From assembly GCA_017853415.1 (NCBI GenBank), contig JAFMJQ010000165.1:1-34148 (forward strand): a stretch of DNA of 34,148 nt, read 5' to 3'. Shown here piece by piece: positions 21,198-29,906 of this stretch. Both the position numbers and the translations under genes were made by a program. Numbering within the stretch: the stretch's first letter is position 1; each line of letters opens with the position of its first letter. The notes below the pieces were generated by a model. That model was not told the DNA's origin. It saw only the letters and a list, made by a program, of their open reading frames with translations, and made no database searches. The DNA comes from Thermoleophilia bacterium (GTDB taxonomy: Bacteria > Actinomycetota > Thermoleophilia > Miltoncostaeales > Miltoncostaeaceae).

Positions 21198-21406
21198 CAA
21201 GATTTATTTGGATAAGAGATCGTGATAAAATTGACCACTACGTTAATGTAGATCATATTATTAAGGTGACAAAAGTTCCGGCGCACGGGCAATTTTCTGC
21301 AGCTGCATATGTTGTTCTTCGTGATAAAAAAGAAATTGGTTTGTCACTTGATAATTTTGATACAGCCGATGATGTGATTGCCAAAATCCAAGTGGCATCT
21401 GTATGA
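21194..21406 (+). CDS. Small protein of unknown function
   Basis: A 70-residue protein (MTRFIWIRDRDKIDHYVNVD at the start) with a probable beta-beta-alpha pattern: strands through IIKVTKV, AYVVLRDKKEIGLSL, then a helix DTADDVIAKIQ. It overlaps both neighbours by four bases (ATGA type), so it is probably coupled to the deformylase gene. No family recognised. Confidence 0.68.
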   Translation: MTRFIWIRDRDKIDHYVNVDHIIKVTKVPAHGQFSAAAYVVLRDKKEIGLSLDNFDTADDVIAKIQVASV

Positions 21407-21957
21407 TTAAAGAAATCCTAGGCAAGGACGATCCGATCCTCAAGGAGAAGATGCCGGCATTCGACTTCAATAATCCGGTTATGGATTCTGTTGAACTGTA
21501 CACTATTCTTGCAGAGACCATGCGTGAGAATGAAGGCATGGGTCTATCTGCTAACCAGATCGGTGTGCGTACACGCGCATTCGTAATGAGGGGTGAAGAG
21601 ATCCTTGGTGTCTTCAATCCTCGTGTAGTTGACGAATCATCGGAGACTGTGACACTGGAAGAAGGCTGCCTTTCGTATCCTAATCTTTTCGTAAAGATCA
21701 AGAGACCGAAGAGCATCAAGGTTCGTTTCACGACTCCGGATGGCCAGACGACTACCAAGACATTTACTGGTATGACGGCTCGTGTGTTCCTGCATGAACT
21801 GGACCATCTTGACGGCATTGCACATACATCACGTGCCAACCGTTACCATCTCGAGCAGGCCAAGAAGCTTGTAAAGAAATTGAAGAAGCGCCCGCTGAGT
21901 GTCCTGCCGGCTATCAGTGACGAGGCACTAGATCTTATGCATGCGTTGCAAAACTAG
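21403..21957 (+). CDS. def: Peptide deformylase
   Basis: Removes the formyl group from the N-terminal Met of nascent proteins; Fe/Zn metalloenzyme of the ribosome exit. It has 184 residues, close to bacterial enzymes and longer than typical cyanophage versions. All three motifs are present: GMGLSANQIG (G-x-G-L-[AS]-A-x-Q, Gln52), EGCLS (Cys89) and HELDH (His131, Glu132, His135). Virus-encoded deformylases are known from marine T4-like phages, where they are thought to keep protein synthesis going during infection. It is not part of the T4 core. Confidence 0.94.
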   Translation: MIKEILGKDDPILKEKMPAFDFNNPVMDSVELYTILAETMRENEGMGLSANQIGVRTRAFVMRGEEILGVFNPRVVDESSETVTLEEGCLSYPNLFVKIKRPKSIKVRFTTPDGQTTTKTFTGMTARVFLHELDHLDGIAHTSRANRYHLEQAKKLVKKLKKRPLSVLPAISDEALDLMHALQN

Positions 21958-22010: not shown

Positions 22011-22418
22011 ATGAGTGAAGATTGGGTACGTGACATCGCCGGTATGCATCGGTATTATGGTGTAAATGAAAAGGTACAGGAGTTTGATAAGCAGACTCTT
22101 AAGCAGTTCCTTCAATTTCGTATGTCATTCCTGACAGAAGAATTGGACGAAACCAAGAATGCAGTTAAGAACAATGACGCCGAAGAGATTGTAGATGGCC
22201 TAATCGATCTGTGTGTCGTTGCTATCGGTACACTGGACTCCATGGGCATTGATTCGTACGAAGCGTGGAACCGTGTTCTACGTGCTAATTTGGCCAAGGA
22301 AGTCGGAGTAAAGCCTGAACGGCCAAATCCTCTTGGGTTGCCGGACCTTATCAAACCGGCCGGATGGAAGGCACCATCCCATGATAAAAATCATGGTTTG
22401 TTGTCAAAACTAAAATAA
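22011..22418 (+). CDS. MazG-like nucleoside triphosphate pyrophosphohydrolase
   Basis: A 135-residue all-helical protein with the metal-binding pattern of the MazG/dUTPase-like superfamily: EELDE (residues 44-48) and, after a short loop, EEIVDGLIDL (58-67). Such enzymes hydrolyse NTPs or dNTPs to the monophosphate and pyrophosphate. In phages they are proposed to cleanse modified or unwanted nucleotides or to adjust (p)ppGpp, and the substrate cannot be told from sequence. A clear ribosome binding site (AAGGAG) precedes ATG 22011. It has its own promoter upstream and a hairpin in its 3' end. Confidence 0.72.
   Translation: MSEDWVRDIAGMHRYYGVNEKVQEFDKQTLKQFLQFRMSFLTEELDETKNAVKNNDAEEIVDGLIDLCVVAIGTLDSMGIDSYEAWNRVLRANLAKEVGVKPERPNPLGLPDLIKPAGWKAPSHDKNHGLLSKLK
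22379..22396 (+). terminator. Hairpin in the 3' end of the MazG-like gene, possible weak terminator
   Basis: A perfect 7-bp stem CCATGAT / ATCATGG with an AAAA loop, followed by TTTGTTGT. It lies about 22 bases inside the coding region and just before the next promoter. The T-run is short and interrupted, so termination would be inefficient. Confidence 0.35.
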
Positions 22419-23182: not shown

Positions 23183-23734
23183 ATGACTGAACTATTAGAA
23201 GAACTAAAATCCATCTTTTCTGTAACCGAACCGGGTCTAGTAATTGACAGAGAGTTTATTGAACTCCGTGATAACATGAAAACTCGCCTGAATCAAGGCG
23301 GTAGAAATGACTTTAAATTTACCAAAGACATTGACTGCTTGATGCTCGAAGAATGGCTCATCAAAAAGAATATTGTTCTTGGTCCATTGGATGAACACCT
23401 TACAAAAGGTGGAGCATGTGTCTATGACTGCCGTATTGAGTTGCTAAATAGCACGGCATATGTCGACTTCAAATGCATCGATCAAAACCTGTATTATAAC
23501 GTTTCTGAGCAGAAAATGGTAACCCATCCATGGGTACAAGAAGGCATTGACAAAGGTCTTCTGACTCATTACTGTTTTTATCAAATGATTCGACCTGAAG
23601 ATCGTCCGTTGCAAGAAAACGATGTAGTGACATTCAAACTTATCAATGTACTTAATTCTCAATATGTGTTAGATTCGTTAATGCCCTCACAATATGAAGG
23701 CAAATATTATAAGGTGAACAAGTATGACCAATGA
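23183..23734 (+). CDS. Unknown protein, possible second nuclease-fold gene
   Basis: A 183-residue protein. ACVYDCRIELLNSTAYVDFKCID (residues 78-100) contains Asp82 and, after a beta hairpin, D-F-K (Asp95, Lys97), a spacing compatible with a PD-(D/E)xK core; a C-terminal helix-strand segment follows. The motif is short and this may be chance. It lies between the putative restriction-fold gene and the modification operon, and its end overlaps the next gene. No ribosome binding site is evident, consistent with a near-leaderless mRNA from the adjacent promoter. Confidence 0.55.
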   Translation: MTELLEELKSIFSVTEPGLVIDREFIELRDNMKTRLNQGGRNDFKFTKDIDCLMLEEWLIKKNIVLGPLDEHLTKGGACVYDCRIELLNSTAYVDFKCIDQNLYYNVSEQKMVTHPWVQEGIDKGLLTHYCFYQMIRPEDRPLQENDVVTFKLINVLNSQYVLDSLMPSQYEGKYYKVNKYDQ

Positions 23735-24092
23735 ACGTGAATCAGTAAAAGTCCTGCAAGAATGTATCGACCTGCAGATTAGAAAGTCGCAAGACTATCA
23801 GAACCCCAACTCGAATGTAGTGCAGGCAATGCACTATCGCCGTGGCGTAGACTCTATCCATGACACCATGCATGGCAAGATGCTTCGTGCCCAGTCTCTT
23901 CTCGAGTCTGGTTCTGCAGCCAACTTCGAATCTCTCGAAGACACCTACAAAGATCTTATCAACTATGCCAGCTTTGCTGTCTCGTACATCCGTGGCAAGA
24001 TGGAAGGCCAAGATCCTAATCGTGACTTCCTCAACCGTCCAATTATCGACGGCTCAAAGATTGGTGGCAACTCCAGCGTGGCAACTAAGTAA
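23724..24092 (+). CDS. Nucleotide-modification-associated protein (DUF1599/Nmad1-like)
   Basis: A 122-residue helical protein: an N-terminal helix (VKVLQECIDLQIRKSQDYQNP), then RRGVDSIHDTMHGKMLRAQSLLES and FESLEDTYKDLINYASFAVSYI. The K-x-x-DY...KMLR...ES-x-xDT-x-xDLxNYA pattern matches DUF1599 (nucleotide modification associated domain 1) as I recall it. That family is typically found beside thymidylate-synthase/hydroxymethylase genes in phages; its biochemical role is not established. It overlaps the preceding gene by 11 bases and its TAA overlaps the ATG of the gp42 homologue. Confidence 0.68.
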   Translation: MTNERESVKVLQECIDLQIRKSQDYQNPNSNVVQAMHYRRGVDSIHDTMHGKMLRAQSLLESGSAANFESLEDTYKDLINYASFAVSYIRGKMEGQDPNRDFLNRPIIDGSKIGGNSSVATK

Positions 24093-24742
24093 TGCTTAAG
24101 GTTGAACACATTCGTGAACACTTCATTGAAGAACTGAATTATGGTCGGTTTGTCACCGACAAGACAGGTGTCAAGACCATCGAGATGATTGGTGCCACAT
24201 TCGAAGCCAATCATCCATCAATCTTCGGCGATGTAAATGAGGATTACATTCAACGCGAACTTGACTGGTACAAGTCAATGTCGCTGTATGTTGATGATAT
24301 TCCTGGTGTTACTCCTGCTATCTGGAAACAGGTTGCTTCGACTGAAGGTAAGATTAACTCCAACTATGGTTGGGCAATCTATAGTGAAGACAACGGATTG
24401 CAGTATCTCAATGTCCTCGATGAATTGACTGCCAATCCTAACAGTCGTCGTGCTGTGATGATCTATACTCGTCCTACTATGTGGTCTGACTATAATCATA
24501 ACGGCATGAGTGACTTCATGTGCACCAATGCTGTACAGTACATGATTCGTGATGGTCAGCTGGTTGCCGTAGTTCAGATGCGTTCTAATGACGTTGTCTT
24601 CGGCTATCGTAACGACTATGCATGGCAAAAGTATGTTGCAGATATGCTGACTAAAGATTTAGGTCTTGACGTAGAACCAAAGATCATCTGGAATGTTGGT
24701 AACCTTCATGTCTATGAACGTCACTTTGATAAGGTAGTCTAA
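24092..24742 (+). CDS. 42: dCMP hydroxymethylase (T4 gp42 family)
   Basis: Converts dCMP to 5-hydroxymethyl-dCMP with methylene-tetrahydrofolate, so that the phage can build DNA with hydroxymethylcytosine. Similarity to T4 gp42 runs along almost the whole length: VTDKTGVKTIE, IQRELDWYKS, INSNYGWAIYSEDN, MSDFMCTNAVQYMIRD and MRSNDVVFGYRNDYAWQKYV. Catalytic Cys144, Glu56 and the cytosine-selecting Asp175 correspond to T4 Cys148, Glu60 and Asp179 with a constant offset of four. Asp rather than Asn at that last position argues for dCMP over dUMP as substrate. It has 216 residues; the C-terminal ~30 residues of the T4 enzyme (246) are absent. It is coupled by overlap to both neighbours. Confidence 0.92.
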   Translation: MLKVEHIREHFIEELNYGRFVTDKTGVKTIEMIGATFEANHPSIFGDVNEDYIQRELDWYKSMSLYVDDIPGVTPAIWKQVASTEGKINSNYGWAIYSEDNGLQYLNVLDELTANPNSRRAVMIYTRPTMWSDYNHNGMSDFMCTNAVQYMIRDGQLVAVVQMRSNDVVFGYRNDYAWQKYVADMLTKDLGLDVEPKIIWNVGNLHVYERHFDKVV

Positions 24743-25185
24743 TGAATAAATGGTCTGAACGTTATATGGATATCGCCAAGTCGGTTGCTACTTGGTCAAA
24801 GGATCCATCCACAAAGGTCGGAGCCGTGGTGGTAGGAGACAAAGGTCAGATCCTCAGTCAGGGATACAATGGCTTTCCTCGTGATGTCAAGGATACTAAA
24901 GACCGTTATGAAAACCGTGAAGAGAAGTACAAGTACATCGTACATGGTGAGATGAATGCAATCTATAATGCATGTCATTCGGGTGCTTCTCTGAACGGTG
25001 CAACTTTGTATGTGACGGGTCTGCCTGTCTGTTCTGAGTGTGCAAAGGGTATCATTCAGGTCGGCATCAAGAAGGTAATCATGCAGTATCCTAAGGATAT
25101 CAGTAAGACATGGAGAGACTCAATGGTTATAACACTGAAGATGTTCCAGGAAGCTGGTGTTACCTTTATTTGTCATGAGGAATAA
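24742..25185 (+). CDS. cd: dCMP deaminase
   Basis: Zinc enzyme that turns dCMP into dUMP, feeding dTTP synthesis and setting the C/T precursor ratio. It has 147 residues (T4 Cd: 193). Motifs: HGEMNA (zinc His and proton-shuttle Glu; Gly instead of the usual Ala in HAE) and PVCSECAKGIIQVGIKKV (PxxC-x-x-C zinc ligands), with DPSTKVGAVVV near the N-terminus. It competes for the same substrate as the hydroxymethylase encoded directly upstream, and the two genes overlap (TAATG). Confidence 0.93.
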   Translation: MNKWSERYMDIAKSVATWSKDPSTKVGAVVVGDKGQILSQGYNGFPRDVKDTKDRYENREEKYKYIVHGEMNAIYNACHSGASLNGATLYVTGLPVCSECAKGIIQVGIKKVIMQYPKDISKTWRDSMVITLKMFQEAGVTFICHEE

Positions 25186-25528
25186 GGTACTAGTTGTCGG
25201 TATCAATCCTTCTTTCAAGAAGAAAAAGAATCCGACACTTATCCGTCTTCATCGCTGGATGGAAGAACTTGGTTGTAAACCATTCTCATTCACGAATGTA
25301 ATACACAAAGAAGGTGTGTACAATAAGTCGGATATAGATTATAATTGGATTAATGAATGCAGCCGAGGCTATGACAAGATCATATGCCTCGGTGGTTTCG
25401 TATCATCGGCTATGGCCGATATCCCACATCACATGATGCCTCACCCATCTCCTCTGAACAGACGGCTAAATAGTCCCGAGTATGAGAGACAACAACTAGA
25501 TCTGGCAATGGAATATCTATGGAACTGA
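25175..25528 (+). CDS. Small uracil-DNA-glycosylase-superfamily protein
   Basis: A 117-residue protein with two signatures of the UDG fold: VLVVGINPS (residues 6-13, the first glycosylase motif region) and MPHPSPLN (88-95, like the HPSPL motif of UDG/MUG enzymes). The middle (YDKIICLGGFVSSAM) fits the strand that carries the second motif. It is half the length of a normal UDG, so it is a minimal version and may not be a classical uracil glycosylase. The ATG at 25175 lies inside the end of the dCMP deaminase gene; the earlier TTG 25157 is less likely. A promoter is embedded inside the gene. A role in editing or processing modified bases is inferred from context only. Confidence 0.65.
   Translation: MRNKVLVVGINPSFKKKKNPTLIRLHRWMEELGCKPFSFTNVIHKEGVYNKSDIDYNWINECSRGYDKIICLGGFVSSAMADIPHHMMPHPSPLNRRLNSPEYERQQLDLAMEYLWN
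25317..25345 (+). promoter_or_regulatory. Internal early-type promoter for the downstream modification genes
   Basis: TGTACA (25317-25322), 17 bases, exact TATAAT (25340-25345). It lies within the UDG-like coding sequence, about 175 bases upstream of ATG 25519, and can express the following genes separately from 42 and cd. Confidence 0.75.
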
Positions 25529-26667
25529 CACAATACTATGATGAATATCTTCGTTACTTTGAACTGGCCAAGGACCAACAGGCAAAGTGTAACCTAGGCA
25601 CAGTTCCCTATCTTGAAAGTAATATGAACGACGATCTGTTGGAGAACGTCGAACTCTATGATGTCGTCGAACGTAAGTTCGCCGGCTTTTCTCAGATTGT
25701 AAATGATGTGTTCTATGGTTGGACTCCTGAACATCCATACTTCCATAAGATGAAACAAGGCTTCCACACACGTGAGCGTGGGTACATCGCCCGTGACTGG
25801 ACTGGCAAGCATGCCGACTTCAGTCTGCCAGAGTGGCTGTACGTATTTCTTCTTCACCGCATAACCGGTTCTGGCATTAACTATTCGAGGAAGCCATCCG
25901 GATATCACAACACAATCTTGCCTCATCTCTATGAAGCTGACTCGATTGAATGGATGGTTCGTAAGTTAAACCACTATCCACATCCATTCTATACCTCAGT
26001 CGGTTATCAGTTTCCTTCCTTCCCAAAAATCCCGGCAGGTACAAACTATCAAAGAGGTGGCGACTACTATCTCTCAGAATATGCTCCGAAGCTTTGCCGT
26101 GAGTTAGCCGAATGGCTTGAGCAGTCAAATGCCAAGAAGGACATGCGTGAGATTGGTGAATGGTTGTTCGAATGGAATACCAGGCACGGTCTTAGAGTCT
26201 ACCGTTTCCAGTATGCTGCATTTGTTGCCGATATTGCTGACTGGTACCCGCAATATGTTAATCTGGATAGCATGTTCTACTATGGCACGAATGCGGTGGA
26301 ATGCATATCATATTTGGCTGTCAACACCGATAAGTTGAAGAAGGAAGCCTTCCTTGATAAAGTGATGGATAAGATCTACGCCGACACTGGTGCGTATCCA
26401 TACAATGCAGAAGATGTGTGCTGCGACTTTATCAGATGGGTTGAGAACTATGTCAAGCCAGGAGCAGACTATAACCATCTTGACTTCGACTCTGTTTGGT
26501 CCTCGTGTAAAATTAAAGACCATCCGTATGGACGTCAACGTGCGATGTTGGACCTGGGCCTAATAAAAACATTTAACTTGATGACATCACATCCGTCCGA
26601 TGATACTGTTATTAAAGCCGCCGGTATATCTGTGGAACAATACAAAGAAATGGTGAAAGCGCTATGA
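25519..26667 (+). CDS. Unrecognised 382-residue protein, candidate DNA base hypermodification enzyme
   Basis: A 382-residue, mainly helical protein rich in Tyr, Trp and His. Distinct blocks: SLPEWLYVFLLHRITGSGINY (~94-114), YHNTILPHLYEADSIEWMVRKL (~122-144), FPSFPKIPAGTNYQRGGDYYLSEYAPKLCRELAEWL (~166-200) and a C-terminal ICCDF-like / WVENYVKPGADY region. The helical layout recalls the DNA-glycosylase-like families (amino acid:DNA transferase and aGPT-pyrophosphorylase types) described in phage base-hypermodification loci, but I cannot confirm membership from sequence alone. Its place between 42-cd and a PLP enzyme, with overlapping starts and stops on both sides, is the main reason for the suggestion. 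Confidence 0.45.
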   Translation: MELTQYYDEYLRYFELAKDQQAKCNLGTVPYLESNMNDDLLENVELYDVVERKFAGFSQIVNDVFYGWTPEHPYFHKMKQGFHTRERGYIARDWTGKHADFSLPEWLYVFLLHRITGSGINYSRKPSGYHNTILPHLYEADSIEWMVRKLNHYPHPFYTSVGYQFPSFPKIPAGTNYQRGGDYYLSEYAPKLCRELAEWLEQSNAKKDMREIGEWLFEWNTRHGLRVYRFQYAAFVADIADWYPQYVNLDSMFYYGTNAVECISYLAVNTDKLKKEAFLDKVMDKIYADTGAYPYNAEDVCCDFIRWVENYVKPGADYNHLDFDSVWSSCKIKDHPYGRQRAMLDLGLIKTFNLMTSHPSDDTVIKAAGISVEQYKEMVKAL

Positions 26668-27566
26668 GTCATGATAAACACATAACCGATGGTTATAACC
26701 AGGATGTAGGTTACCGTTCTTGGGAAGAGGCCAAGGACTACTATCTAAACCTTGCTGCCACATGGACCGATCCCTATCCAGATCCGGTTGTAACTGTGCA
26801 TGATGGTGTGCGTTGTGTACGTGACGATCTTATCACAGGAACTAAGGTGCGCGGCGGTGACTGTCTAATTTCAAGAATCAATCAGTCGACTATTGTATAC
26901 GTACAGCCACGTACGGGTCTTGCAGGTGTATCCATCCTTGATGTTGCTAAACGTCATAATAAGAAGGTGAAGTTGTTCATGCCTTCTGCTCAACGGATTT
27001 CACACCACCAGGCATGTTGTATCGAACAGGGTGCAGAGGCATCATTCCATCGTATCGCTGCAATGCCGAACCTGAACAAGATCGCCAAGGAATGGGCAGA
27101 CCAGAACGACGATGCATTCTTCGTTCCGCTTGGCCTAAAGCATGAACTCGTCACTGCTGGTATCGTCAAGGCTGCATCAAAGATTGAAGCACCAGATGAA
27201 GTATACGTAGCCATCTCGACTGGCGTTCTTTCGAGAGCAATGCAGATTGCATGGCCGAATGCCAAGTTCTACTCGGTTGCTGTATCACGTAACCTGAAAG
27301 CTGGTGAACTCGGTCGTGCTGATGTTATCTCTGACCCTATGGCATTCCAGCAGAGTGAGAAGCCTGAGAATCTGCCACCGTTTCCATGCATAGATACATA
27401 TGATGGTAAGGTATGGAAGTACATTCCAAAGAATACCGGCCGCAATATCCTGTTCTGGAACGTTGGCGCAGAACCGGTTCTCAACGATCCTACCATCTAT
27501 GATCGCGTAAATAGTTATCGCGATTGGCCAAAAAAATGTGTACATTTTGCCCAACTTGATGTATAG
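26664..27566 (+). CDS. Putative PLP-dependent enzyme, fold type II
   Basis: A 300-residue protein resembling the tryptophan synthase beta / cysteine synthase / ACC deaminase fold. The segment VRDDLITGTKVRGGDCLIS (residues 52-70) mirrors the KRDDL...GxNKxRK motif of the ACC-deaminase and D-cysteine-desulfhydrase group, making Lys61 the likely PLP-binding lysine. SILDVAKRHNKKVKLFMPSAQRISHHQACCIEQGAEA follows the pattern 'leave the cofactor domain, MPxx...GA' of the family; EVYVAISTGVLSRAMQIAWP may be the phosphate-binding region. It could supply or alter an amino-acid-derived substituent on a modified base, by analogy with PLP enzymes in other hypermodification clusters. The substrate is unknown. 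ATG overlaps the previous stop. Confidence 0.55.
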   Translation: MSHDKHITDGYNQDVGYRSWEEAKDYYLNLAATWTDPYPDPVVTVHDGVRCVRDDLITGTKVRGGDCLISRINQSTIVYVQPRTGLAGVSILDVAKRHNKKVKLFMPSAQRISHHQACCIEQGAEASFHRIAAMPNLNKIAKEWADQNDDAFFVPLGLKHELVTAGIVKAASKIEAPDEVYVAISTGVLSRAMQIAWPNAKFYSVAVSRNLKAGELGRADVISDPMAFQQSEKPENLPPFPCIDTYDGKVWKYIPKNTGRNILFWNVGAEPVLNDPTIYDRVNSYRDWPKKCVHFAQLDV

Positions 27567-27567
27567 T
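27539..27567 (+). promoter_or_regulatory. Early-type promoter before the SGNH-like gene
   Basis: TGTACA (27539-27544), 17 bases, TATAGT (27562-27567; 5 of 6). The -10 overlaps the stop of the PLP gene and ends seven bases before ATG 27575, so a transcript from here would be leaderless or start inside the next gene. Confidence 0.6.
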
Positions 27568-27574
27568 GAATAAT

Positions 27575-28606
27575 ATGAGCATACTAATCACATCCCCATT
27601 CACCCACATATCGTCTAACATCCATTCGCATCGTGCAGCCCAGGCGGCAATATATGCAGACCAGTTAGAGGATGCCGGATACACTGTACATCTAGACCGT
27701 ACTGGTGATATCCATCCTGATATCAATTCATTCGATACTATCTGTGTCTATCACGGCAATGACTGGGGTGGATCTCTTAACCTATTTGGTGGAATGAAAA
27801 ACTACGGTAATATCGACAACCTGATTCGCTACTCTCAATTTAAGGGTATTGTGAAATCGTTGTGGATCGATCATCCTAAATATTCTGAGATGCTCGAGCC
27901 ACGTATGAAGGGTGATATCCATCCTGACTGGGCAAAGGTTGACTGGGAAAACCTGAAGCGTATCGAGAATACTGCTGTGACTCTTAGGCAGATGACGGCA
28001 ACAACAAAGGTGGTTGCCGGTGATAGCCATGCTATCTGCATGTATCGTCCAGGTTGGTTTGTTAACTCAGTGCCTTTCAAGACTCTACACGGTGCACTCA
28101 AGGAAGGTCTGAGTACGTTCATTCAACCGCATCATGAGATTGCTGAGTTCTACTTTGGCAACATCGATGTGCGTCACCATCTGATGCGTCAGGCAAATCC
28201 TGAAGAGGCAACTCGTGATCTTGCTAAAAGATACTATGAGCAACTATCTCAACTAGATCTGGCCAAGGTATATGCCTATGAACTGCTACCTATCGAGAAT
28301 GAGTCTCGTGCATTGCCGAAGACTGGTTACTATAAGGGTACACCGTTCTACGGTGCATGGGAACATCGTGAGACTGTTCGCCTGATCTTCAAGGATGAGA
28401 TGAAGAAACTTTGTGCACAAGGTAGTGTCAACTTCATTGAATGGGTTGACTACCTCATGAATGATAAGGGTGAACTTGACTTTGCTCACATGGAGAAACC
28501 AAAGTCTGTCCATCTTTCCCGTGATTCCTATCCACACTGGCAAGGTCGTAAATGGAGCGGCTTGTCTGAAACTAAACCATCAACACTAGAGGACTTTTTT
28601 ATATAA
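27575..28606 (+). CDS. SGNH-hydrolase-like protein of the modification operon
   Basis: A 343-residue protein. An N-terminal part (to ~100) has a Rossmann-like look (ILITSPFTHISSN, then FDTICVYHGNDWGGSLN). The middle carries KVVAGDSHA (GDSH at ~149-152), the usual nucleophile block I of SGNH proteins, then EFYFGNIDVRHHL (~192-205), similar to the FGEIDxRxH block seen in some acyl-ester hydrolases/transferases, and a C-terminal KSVHLSRDSYPHW that may supply the Asp/His pair. It could add or remove an acyl group on a sugar or base substituent; this is speculation. ATG 27575 is chosen; GTG 27566 is in frame but lies within the stop and -10 region. Confidence 0.5.
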   Translation: MSILITSPFTHISSNIHSHRAAQAAIYADQLEDAGYTVHLDRTGDIHPDINSFDTICVYHGNDWGGSLNLFGGMKNYGNIDNLIRYSQFKGIVKSLWIDHPKYSEMLEPRMKGDIHPDWAKVDWENLKRIENTAVTLRQMTATTKVVAGDSHAICMYRPGWFVNSVPFKTLHGALKEGLSTFIQPHHEIAEFYFGNIDVRHHLMRQANPEEATRDLAKRYYEQLSQLDLAKVYAYELLPIENESRALPKTGYYKGTPFYGAWEHRETVRLIFKDEMKKLCAQGSVNFIEWVDYLMNDKGELDFAHMEKPKSVHLSRDSYPHWQGRKWSGLSETKPSTLEDFFI

Positions 28607-29043
28607 TGAGCGCAAAAAGGATTGAAGAAGAAATGAGCGATGCAGGAAAACTTACAATAGGACATGGATCTACTTTGAATGCAACTGGTATACCTGGAAC
28701 CGAAGGCCCTCCTGGTAAAATGGGAACCATTGCAACTTTTATTCCAGGAATTAAAGCAAAGCATTTAATCGAGTATAAATACAATGAAGGCGAATCACTC
28801 AAAGAAATTCAGTCTTACATTGATGCTACGTACGATCAGCATTATTCCCGAAATAAATTCCAAGCAACAGAATTCATCATTGATGCAGGCCACGGCACCG
28901 GTTTCAATATCGGGAATATGATGAAGTACACACAGCGTTACGGTCGCAAAGGCGATCCAGCCGAATGGCGCAAAGACCTGATGAAGGTTATCCACTATGC
29001 AATTATGCAACTCCACGTCCATGACACAGAAAATAAGGATTAA
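28606..29043 (+). CDS. DUF3310-type protein with a collagen-like N-terminal stretch
   Basis: A 145-residue protein. The C-terminal half, YSRNKFQATEFIIDAGHGTGFNIGNMMKYTQRYGRKG followed by WRKDLMKVIHYAIMQL, is the DUF3310 pattern (helical; family that includes the T7 gp1.7 nucleotide-kinase region). The N-terminal ~60 residues are unlike it and contain GIPGTEGPPGKMG, four Gly-x-y triplets as in collagen-like phage proteins. The N-terminal half is also more AT-rich, so this may be a fusion. TAATG overlap with the preceding gene. A nucleotide-metabolism role is likely but the reaction is unproven. Confidence 0.68.
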   Translation: MSAKRIEEEMSDAGKLTIGHGSTLNATGIPGTEGPPGKMGTIATFIPGIKAKHLIEYKYNEGESLKEIQSYIDATYDQHYSRNKFQATEFIIDAGHGTGFNIGNMMKYTQRYGRKGDPAEWRKDLMKVIHYAIMQLHVHDTENKD

Positions 29044-29045
29044 TT

Positions 29046-29906
29046 ATGGGAATTGAAATTAACGTACCAATTGAAAAGTTGCGTGAGCGCAAGCTCTTTG
29101 TAGCGGCTCCTATGTATGGCGGACAGTGCGCCGGCATGTTCACTCGCTCAATCGCCGATCTCTCGGCACTATGTACCCACTACGGTATTCAGGTTCGATT
29201 CTACTTCCTCTTCAATGAGTCGCTGATTACTCGTGCACGTAACTACTGTGCTGACGAGTTCATGCGTTCAGGTGACACCCACCTGATGTTCATCGACTCG
29301 GATATCGGTTTCAACGCCAACGACGTGATTGCATTGCTTGCTCTACAGTCGCAGAATCCAGAAGATGATGACTATGATATCATCGCAGGTCCTTATCCAA
29401 AGAAGTGTATCAGCTGGGAAAAGATCAAGCTTGCAGTTGACAAGGGCTTCGCCGATGAAGATCCTAATCAGCTTGAGAAGTATGTAGGCGACTATGTCTT
29501 CAATCCTGCTGGTGATCGTGGTGAGATTCCACTCGGTGAACCGGTTGAAGTTCTCGAAGCTGGTACCGGATTCATGATGATCCGTCGTAACACTTTCGAC
29601 AAGTTTGCTGAAGCTTATCCTCAGCAGATGTACAAGCCTGACCATGTTCGCACAGAACACTTTGATGGTTCACGTGAGATCATGGCCTTCTTCGATACGC
29701 CTATCTGTCCAGACACGAAGCGTTACCTGTCGGAAGACTACATGTTCTGTCAGTGGACACGTAATGCTGGTATGAAGGTATGGTTCTGCCCATGGATGCA
29801 ACTACAACACGTCGGCATGTATGTCTTCGGTGGTAGCCTTGTTGACCTGGCTCAGATCGGTGCAGCAGCCACGGCTGATGTCGGTCAATTAAAGAAGAAA
29901 AAGTAA
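29046..29906 (+). CDS. GT-A type glycosyltransferase, candidate DNA-base glucosyl/arabinosyl transferase
   Basis: A 286-residue protein of the family-2-like GT-A fold: KLFVAAPMYGGQCAG at the N-terminal strand, NYCADEFMRSGDTHLMFIDSDIGF with the DxD metal/nucleotide-sugar motif (residues 84-86), EAGTGFMMIRRNTFDKF, and SEDYMFCQWTRNAGMKVWFCP with the catalytic-base region (ED). It ends in a basic KKKK tail. No membrane segment or signal, so it acts in the cytoplasm. In a phage with dCMP hydroxymethylase, a soluble GT next to the clamp genes could glycosylate hydroxymethylcytosine; modification of a virion protein or host polysaccharide precursor is the alternative. Confidence 0.7.
   Translation: MGIEINVPIEKLRERKLFVAAPMYGGQCAGMFTRSIADLSALCTHYGIQVRFYFLFNESLITRARNYCADEFMRSGDTHLMFIDSDIGFNANDVIALLALQSQNPEDDDYDIIAGPYPKKCISWEKIKLAVDKGFADEDPNQLEKYVGDYVFNPAGDRGEIPLGEPVEVLEAGTGFMMIRRNTFDKFAEAYPQQMYKPDHVRTEHFDGSREIMAFFDTPICPDTKRYLSEDYMFCQWTRNAGMKVWFCPWMQLQHVGMYVFGGSLVDLAQIGAAATADVGQLKKKK

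Follow-up and report, generated by a model that had tools for sequence, protein, structure and literature searches.

Can phage DNA be hypermodified through an amino-acid-type pathway that starts from cytosine? The question is raised by a row of genes in a 34,148-nucleotide stretch of DNA assigned to a Thermoleophilia bacterium (GenBank assembly GCA_017853415.1, contig JAFMJQ010000165.1, positions 1 to 34,148), the whole of which is referred to as the window. In the well-studied cases, amino-acid-type hypermodification of phage DNA begins with hydroxymethyluracil (hmU), and the known cytosine handles are hydroxymethylcytosine (hmC) bearing sugars or a carbamate, and carboxymethylcytosine. Gene content read across the contig identifies the window as a fragment of a T4-superfamily myovirus. 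Among the genes of the row are those for a dCMP hydroxymethylase (gp42), a helical protein (HEL382, hereafter HEL), a fold type II pyridoxal phosphate (PLP) enzyme and an SGNH protein (Table 1), and the row is probably a cytosine hypermodification cassette acting on hmC in DNA. The row of eight coupled genes reported in a preliminary description of this DNA is evident, as the genes overlap or nearly touch; nine tightly coupled genes occupy the + strand from 23724 to 29906, with intergenic gaps, gene by gene from 23183, of -11, -1, -1, -29, -10, -4, -1, -1 and +2 bases, and their open reading frames (ORFs) are real. The same gene content and order are kept in more than 100 IMG/VR contigs, so the coupled arrangement is not due to chance.

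The starting base is indicated by the 24092 protein, which displays 66% identity to T4 gp42. Its nucleophile, Cys144, and its dCMP selector, Asp175, align with Cys148 and Asp179 of the T4 enzyme, which confirms the earlier remark that the dCMP-selecting Asp is kept. Asp at this position is established to favour dCMP over dUMP. All 111 relatives with a readable gp42 motif carry Cys-Thr-Asn together with Asp (16 further relatives were not readable by the pattern used), and no dUMP-selective hydroxymethylase with Asn was encountered among these 111 genes. In each of the six long relatives (117-167 kb), an Asp-type gp42 is the only ThyA-family gene. Assignment of the protein as a true gp42, predicted to convert dCMP to 5-hydroxymethyl-dCMP, is strongly supported by homology. 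An association of Asp-type thymidylate synthases with modified-cytosine contigs has been reported for metagenomes (PMC8670742).

Linkage of the remaining genes was elucidated from 115 distinct HEL loci pooled from three scans and one genome scan, the search with the HEL protein having given 104 related IMG/VR stretches; the scans were seeded with cassette proteins and the locus sample is not independent. The PLP and SGNH genes are present at all the loci with at least 4.5 kb downstream of HEL (75/75), and gp42 lies within 3.5 kb at 51 of the 59 loci with at least 2.5 kb upstream, so HEL homologues are not consistently found in phages devoid of a hydroxymethylase. HEL, PLP and SGNH form the invariant core, usually in the order HEL-(X332)-PLP-SGNH. 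The DUF3310 gene occurs in 53/75 loci, usually adjoining the cassette. In one actinobacterial genome bin, HEL-X332-PLP-SGNH stands on a contig with another phage background (L204:5635-9502), and gp42 was not found close to it; the core genes thus behave as a module.

Some members of these loci vary. X332, encoded between HEL and PLP in 51/75 loci (e.g. L005:9139-10137), is a conserved family with no above-cut-off Pfam match, and the window phage lacks it. At L062:12075-13274, and also in L055, L064, L169 and L203, the gene after SGNH encodes a homologue of C5-cytosine methyltransferases (PF00145, E 2e-17). It is present in 19/75 loci, and its occurrence in about a quarter of them is odd for a phage expected to carry a substituted C5; its phage matches are S-TIM5-type cyanophages, one Pseudoalteromonas phage and one Anabaena phage, and no others. 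In L023 and L072, genes for RecA-like and DnaB-like helicase proteins follow the cassette in place of DUF3310 and the putative glycosyltransferase.

The protein encoded at 27566 (start at GTG 27566 or ATG 27575) had been described as SGNH-like. Profile and structure comparisons confirmed the SGNH fold, and revealed that it is not a plain SGNH enzyme: residues ~1-142 form a domain homologous, over about the first 120 residues, to the DNA-acceptor domain of T4 beta-glucosyltransferase, and residues ~145-340 make up the SGNH domain. The profile of residues 1-142 matched that of a six-member beta-glucosyltransferase family over T4 residues 1-115 (hhalign 96.3%, E 1.6e-9), and neither the C-terminal part nor five other protein families gave such a match. 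The hidden Markov model (HMM) of beta-glucosyltransferase matches 173/173 members, other families giving no better than E 0.49, and Pfam T4-Gluco-transf (PF09198) matches 12 of 19 diverse members (best E 3.4e-4). When the AlphaFold model (predicted local distance difference test, pLDDT, 84) was compared to the PDB by Foldseek, platelet-activating-factor acetylhydrolase and sialate O-acetylesterase were retrieved (E ~1e-5), with T4 beta-glucosyltransferase (1qkj) at rank 42 (E 1.7e-3). Asn70-x-Phe72-Gly-Gly of the T4 enzyme corresponds to Asn72-x-Phe74-Gly-Gly here, a motif which is not invariant, as Ser replaces Asn in Aeromonas phage 25 and the motif is absent in L204. In the T4 enzyme, Phe72 presumably enters the DNA as the base is flipped out, and Asp100 acts as the catalytic base. 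In the SGNH domain Ser154 and His316 are invariant and Gly198-Asn199 (block III G/N) is conserved; the Asp usually located 3 residues before the His of SGNH enzymes is not conserved in the family. As judged from its sequence and predicted fold, the protein is a fusion in which the SGNH domain replaces the UDP-glucose domain of beta-glucosyltransferase. No separate beta-glucosyltransferase was seen in the six longest relatives.

Homologues of the fusion also occur in Aeromonas phages 44RR and 25, which possess gp56 and a gp42 60% and 59% identical to that of the window, respectively. The 44RR fusion (ORF233c, L082:8004-10391) extends at its C-terminus into a further domain with weak similarity to the 5-hmdU DNA kinase helical family, HMUDK_hel (E 0.0036), which hhalign did not confirm; this gene adjoins a sodium/sugar symporter gene and motA. 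In Aeromonas phage 25 (L086:5782-7963), genes for UDP-galactopyranose mutase and for an unassigned protein, possibly a glycosyltransferase, lie directly upstream of the homologue. As phage 25 has gp42, these neighbours of the fusion homologue suggest that its hmC is decorated with galactofuranose. A distant homologue with an N-F-Y-G-G motif is present in Tenacibaculum phage PTm1 (L083:7557-8576).

Profile comparison of the PLP enzyme revealed homology to that of the thymidine-hypermodifying phage M6 (hhalign 95.3%, E 2e-8), and blastp with the M6 enzyme retrieved cassette relatives at E 1e-5. The gene of the M6 enzyme adjoins that of the amino acid:DNA transferase (ADDT). Lys61 is invariant in 14 sequences, M6 included, and the profile matches cysteine synthase structures (E 1.5e-5), in agreement with the type II PLP fold assigned earlier. 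The M6-type PLP step is reportedly a decarboxylation. Single-protein Pfam and PDB sequence searches with PLP and HEL gave no match. A related PLP domain exists in Erythrobacter phage ZS04 (L084:2326-4764), as part of a protein that also contains DNA methyltransferase domains (PF01555) and whose N-terminus is ParB-like.

A search of named phage records with HEL retrieved nothing. HEL gave an AlphaFold model of moderate quality (pLDDT 71.5; predicted template modelling score 0.74). Its top Foldseek match in BFVD is a homologue, 65% identical, that bears the name 'amino acid:DNA transferase domain-containing' (E 7e-35), and a second match with an amino-acid:DNA-transferase name follows at E 4e-4; these names are probably automatic. 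The kinase-helical proteins of RSL1 and phiW-14 matched only at E 0.28 and 0.56, and the PDB fold search gave no match. The fold evidence makes HEL a probable member of the amino-acid:DNA-transferase/5-hmdU-kinase-helical superfamily. Of the families compared with the HMUDK_hel HMM, X332 ranks first, at an E of only 0.077. Colinear motifs of HEL and M6 HMUDK_hel were paired by eye (INY/INW, FYTSVGY/VYTGAY and AEDVCCDF/IEHTLCEF), but in the motif test HEL did not outscore shuffled sequences (z 0.03), and the pairs were set aside.

A pathway may be proposed from these observations, in which gp42 would make 5-hydroxymethyl-dCMP for incorporation into the phage DNA. The SGNH fusion would bind DNA via its beta-glucosyltransferase-type domain and offer the hmC hydroxyl to the SGNH site, most likely for O-acyl transfer. 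HEL would attach an amino-acid-type nucleophile, as its fold suggests, and the PLP enzyme, by homology to that of M6, would reshape the attached amino acid, e.g. by decarboxylation. The modified base would likely protect against host nucleases. Both the modified atom and the order of the SGNH, HEL and PLP steps are what we infer. A more specific, kinase-free version, in which the fusion esterifies the flipped hmC hydroxyl, HEL puts an amino acid in place of the ester and the resulting group is trimmed by the PLP enzyme, is unlikely; it fits the strict HEL-PLP-SGNH linkage, the 44RR fusion and the failure to find a kinase. As the M6-type kinase was not found in the six long relatives, an acyl-based activation is allowed, not shown.

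Several observations weigh against hmC hypermodification by the cassette. The M6-type 5-hmdU DNA kinase, a P-loop enzyme, has no homologue in the six long relatives, where unrelated kinases are possible, the window itself being a fragment, and no radical S-adenosylmethionine (SAM) gene is found among the cassette genes; consequently, the M6 chemistry is not simply transferable. T4-type dCTPase gp56 likewise has no homologue in the long relatives, which makes full replacement of cytosine uncertain. Eight of the 59 loci, mostly on short contigs, have no gp42 in the upstream stretch, and none is detectable in Tenacibaculum phage PTm1. HEL alignments of 20 and 19 members found no Pfam match, the ADDT family proposed for comparison in the preliminary description included, and comparison of HEL with ADDT, HMUDK_hel and X332 by hhalign, HMMER and a five-motif chain gave nothing significant. 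The HEL sequence tests neither support nor refute the assignment, because the known ADDT and HMUDK sets failed to match each other. In the long relatives, the ADDT model (PF18724) and PF18723 (HMUDK_hel) have no match; both match in M6, ViI and phiW-14.

The homology of the PLP enzyme to an M6 enzyme working on hmU-derived bases, and the resemblance of HEL to families known from hmU pathways, would also suit an M6-like pathway acting on thymidine or uracil, with gp42 as an independent T4-type hmC enzyme merely lying beside it. This is very unlikely, as the sole ThyA-family gene of the long relatives is the Asp-type gp42 rather than an hmU-type hydroxymethylase, no M6 kinase was found in them, and the acceptor domain borne by the SGNH protein is that of a glucosyltransferase acting on hmC. 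Simple decoration of hmC is an unlikely alternative of a different kind, in which the SGNH protein O-acylates or deacylates, HEL and PLP make the donor or act elsewhere, and no amino acid is placed on the base; it draws on the gp42-bearing Aeromonas phages, where the fusion stands alone or with sugar genes, and on carbamoylation, a related hmC O-modification which is proven (PMC8670742). The inseparability of HEL and PLP from SGNH at 75/75 loci and the DNA transferases among the fold matches of HEL argue against it. Finally, the neighbouring MazG, Nmad1 and dCMP deaminase are all nucleotide-level enzymes, and HEL, PLP, SGNH and the adjacent genes might work in nucleotide-pool metabolism or in some other aspect of host takeover, with no DNA modification; the beta-glucosyltransferase-type acceptor domain, the M6-type PLP enzyme and the transferase-like HEL point to modification at the level of DNA, and we consider this explanation very unlikely.

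Hypermodification of hmC, as first put forward in the preliminary description, is thus retained in part. It is favoured by Cys144 and Asp175 of gp42, the linkage of gp42 to HEL, PLP and SGNH, the M6-type PLP enzyme, the beta-glucosyltransferase-like acceptor domain and the 44RR fusion; a GT-A glycosyltransferase as pathway member and a plain SGNH enzyme had to be given up. No PDB match supports the GT-A fold of the 29046 protein, which matches only PHROG 1574, a family of unknown function. Its gene starts 2 bases after that of DUF3310, and homologues occupy the same slot upstream of gp45/gp44 in phages DLP6, Cr30 and phiM12, none of which has gp42. Because gp42-less phages carry the same gene in the same slot, it is probably not part of the cassette and was rejected as a phage-backbone gene; the cassette seems to have been inserted upstream of this gene.

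Comparison with characterized systems suggests that the cassette is a new form of phage pyrimidine hypermodification, a kind of pathway already known. M6-like cassettes comprise a hydroxymethylase, Nmad5, aGPT-PPlase1, a kinase, radical SAM, PLP and aGPT-PPlase2, the last being the ADDT (PMC9476957). In the M6/SN1 systems (PMC9476957), as in the present one, a hydroxymethylase of the ThyA family precedes one or more transferase-like helical proteins and a fold-II PLP enzyme, the PLP enzymes being homologous; the M6/SN1 systems differ in starting from hmU instead of hmC, and here the SGNH/beta-glucosyltransferase fusion is always in the cassette and HEL has no ADDT Pfam match. As in T4, hmC made by gp42 would be passed to an enzyme with a beta-glucosyltransferase acceptor domain; however, an SGNH domain stands in place of the UDP-glucose-binding half, and no sugar transfer is expected. 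The carbamoyltransferase found by MetaGPA, for which carbamoylation of hmC is proven, similarly uses hmC as an O-modification handle in environmental phages with an Asp-type thymidylate synthase homologue nearby, but it is an unrelated transferase with no PLP or HEL genes reported (PMC8670742). CmoX/CmoY also install an amino-acid-type hypermodification on phage cytosine, by a C5-methyltransferase with carboxy-SAM and an amide ligase rather than gp42 (PMC12783734); a C5-methyltransferase homologue is found only in some cassette relatives and not in the window. A literature search of incomplete coverage found no paper describing the cassette, and an earlier description is possible.

If hmC hypermodification is correct, the presence of an M6-type PLP enzyme in a widespread hmC cassette would mean that two chemistries have been combined, and the cassette offers a definite place, open to experiment, in which to look for a new DNA base. 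From the fusion it seems that an hmC-reading module can be reused with different catalytic domains, which would be relevant to restriction evasion and might serve as an hmC-specific labelling tool.

Table 1. Genes of the cassette and its surroundings in the window
Product	Position	Strand	Evidence
MazG-like nucleotide pyrophosphohydrolase, backbone gene, possibly dCTP-clearing	22011..22418	+	PHROG 671 E 2e-21; PHROG 18404
Nmad1/DUF1599 protein, MazG-associated	23724..24092	+	PF07659 E 1e-6
dCMP hydroxymethylase gp42 (predicted)	24092..24742	+	PHROG 160 E 3e-56; 66% identity to T4 gp42
dCMP deaminase	24742..25185	+	PF00383 E 1e-23; PHROG 174 E 8e-48
Small UDG/DUF1643-like protein	25157..25528	+	PF03167 E 0.019, PF07799 E 0.044, both below cut-off
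HEL382, helical protein	25519..26667	+	AlphaFold pLDDT 71.5; Foldseek BFVD matches
Fold type II PLP enzyme, catalytic Lys61	26664..27566	+	PHROG 7093 E 6e-39; hhalign to M6 PLP
Predicted beta-glucosyltransferase-type acceptor domain/SGNH fusion	27566..28606	+	hhalign, HMM, Pfam PF09198, Foldseek
DUF3310 protein	28606..29043	+	PF11753 E 3e-7
Putative glycosyltransferase, phage-backbone gene	29046..29906	+	PHROG 1574

Among the nucleotide-level neighbours, the Nmad1 protein is present in 50 of the 59 loci with enough upstream sequence and shares PHROG 18404 with the MazG-like protein; together they might take the dCTPase role instead of gp56. The small 25157 protein, with GINPS and HPSPLN motifs, is accessory and variable, and the UDG fold once assigned to it is reflected only in a weak Pfam match. 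In the window, the gene order is terminase, sheath, portal, gp23-like capsid, UvsW helicase, late sigma, gp47/gp46, cassette, gp45 and gp44. Phage records searched by megablast with the window gave no match, and the host assignment is uncertain because the contig belongs to a 1.97-Mb metagenome-assembled genome. A phage-encoded peptide deformylase (21403-21957) lies upstream of the cassette and is kept in relatives, and two tRNA genes, Arg (TCT) and Met (CAT), are located at the contig end (33940-34097).

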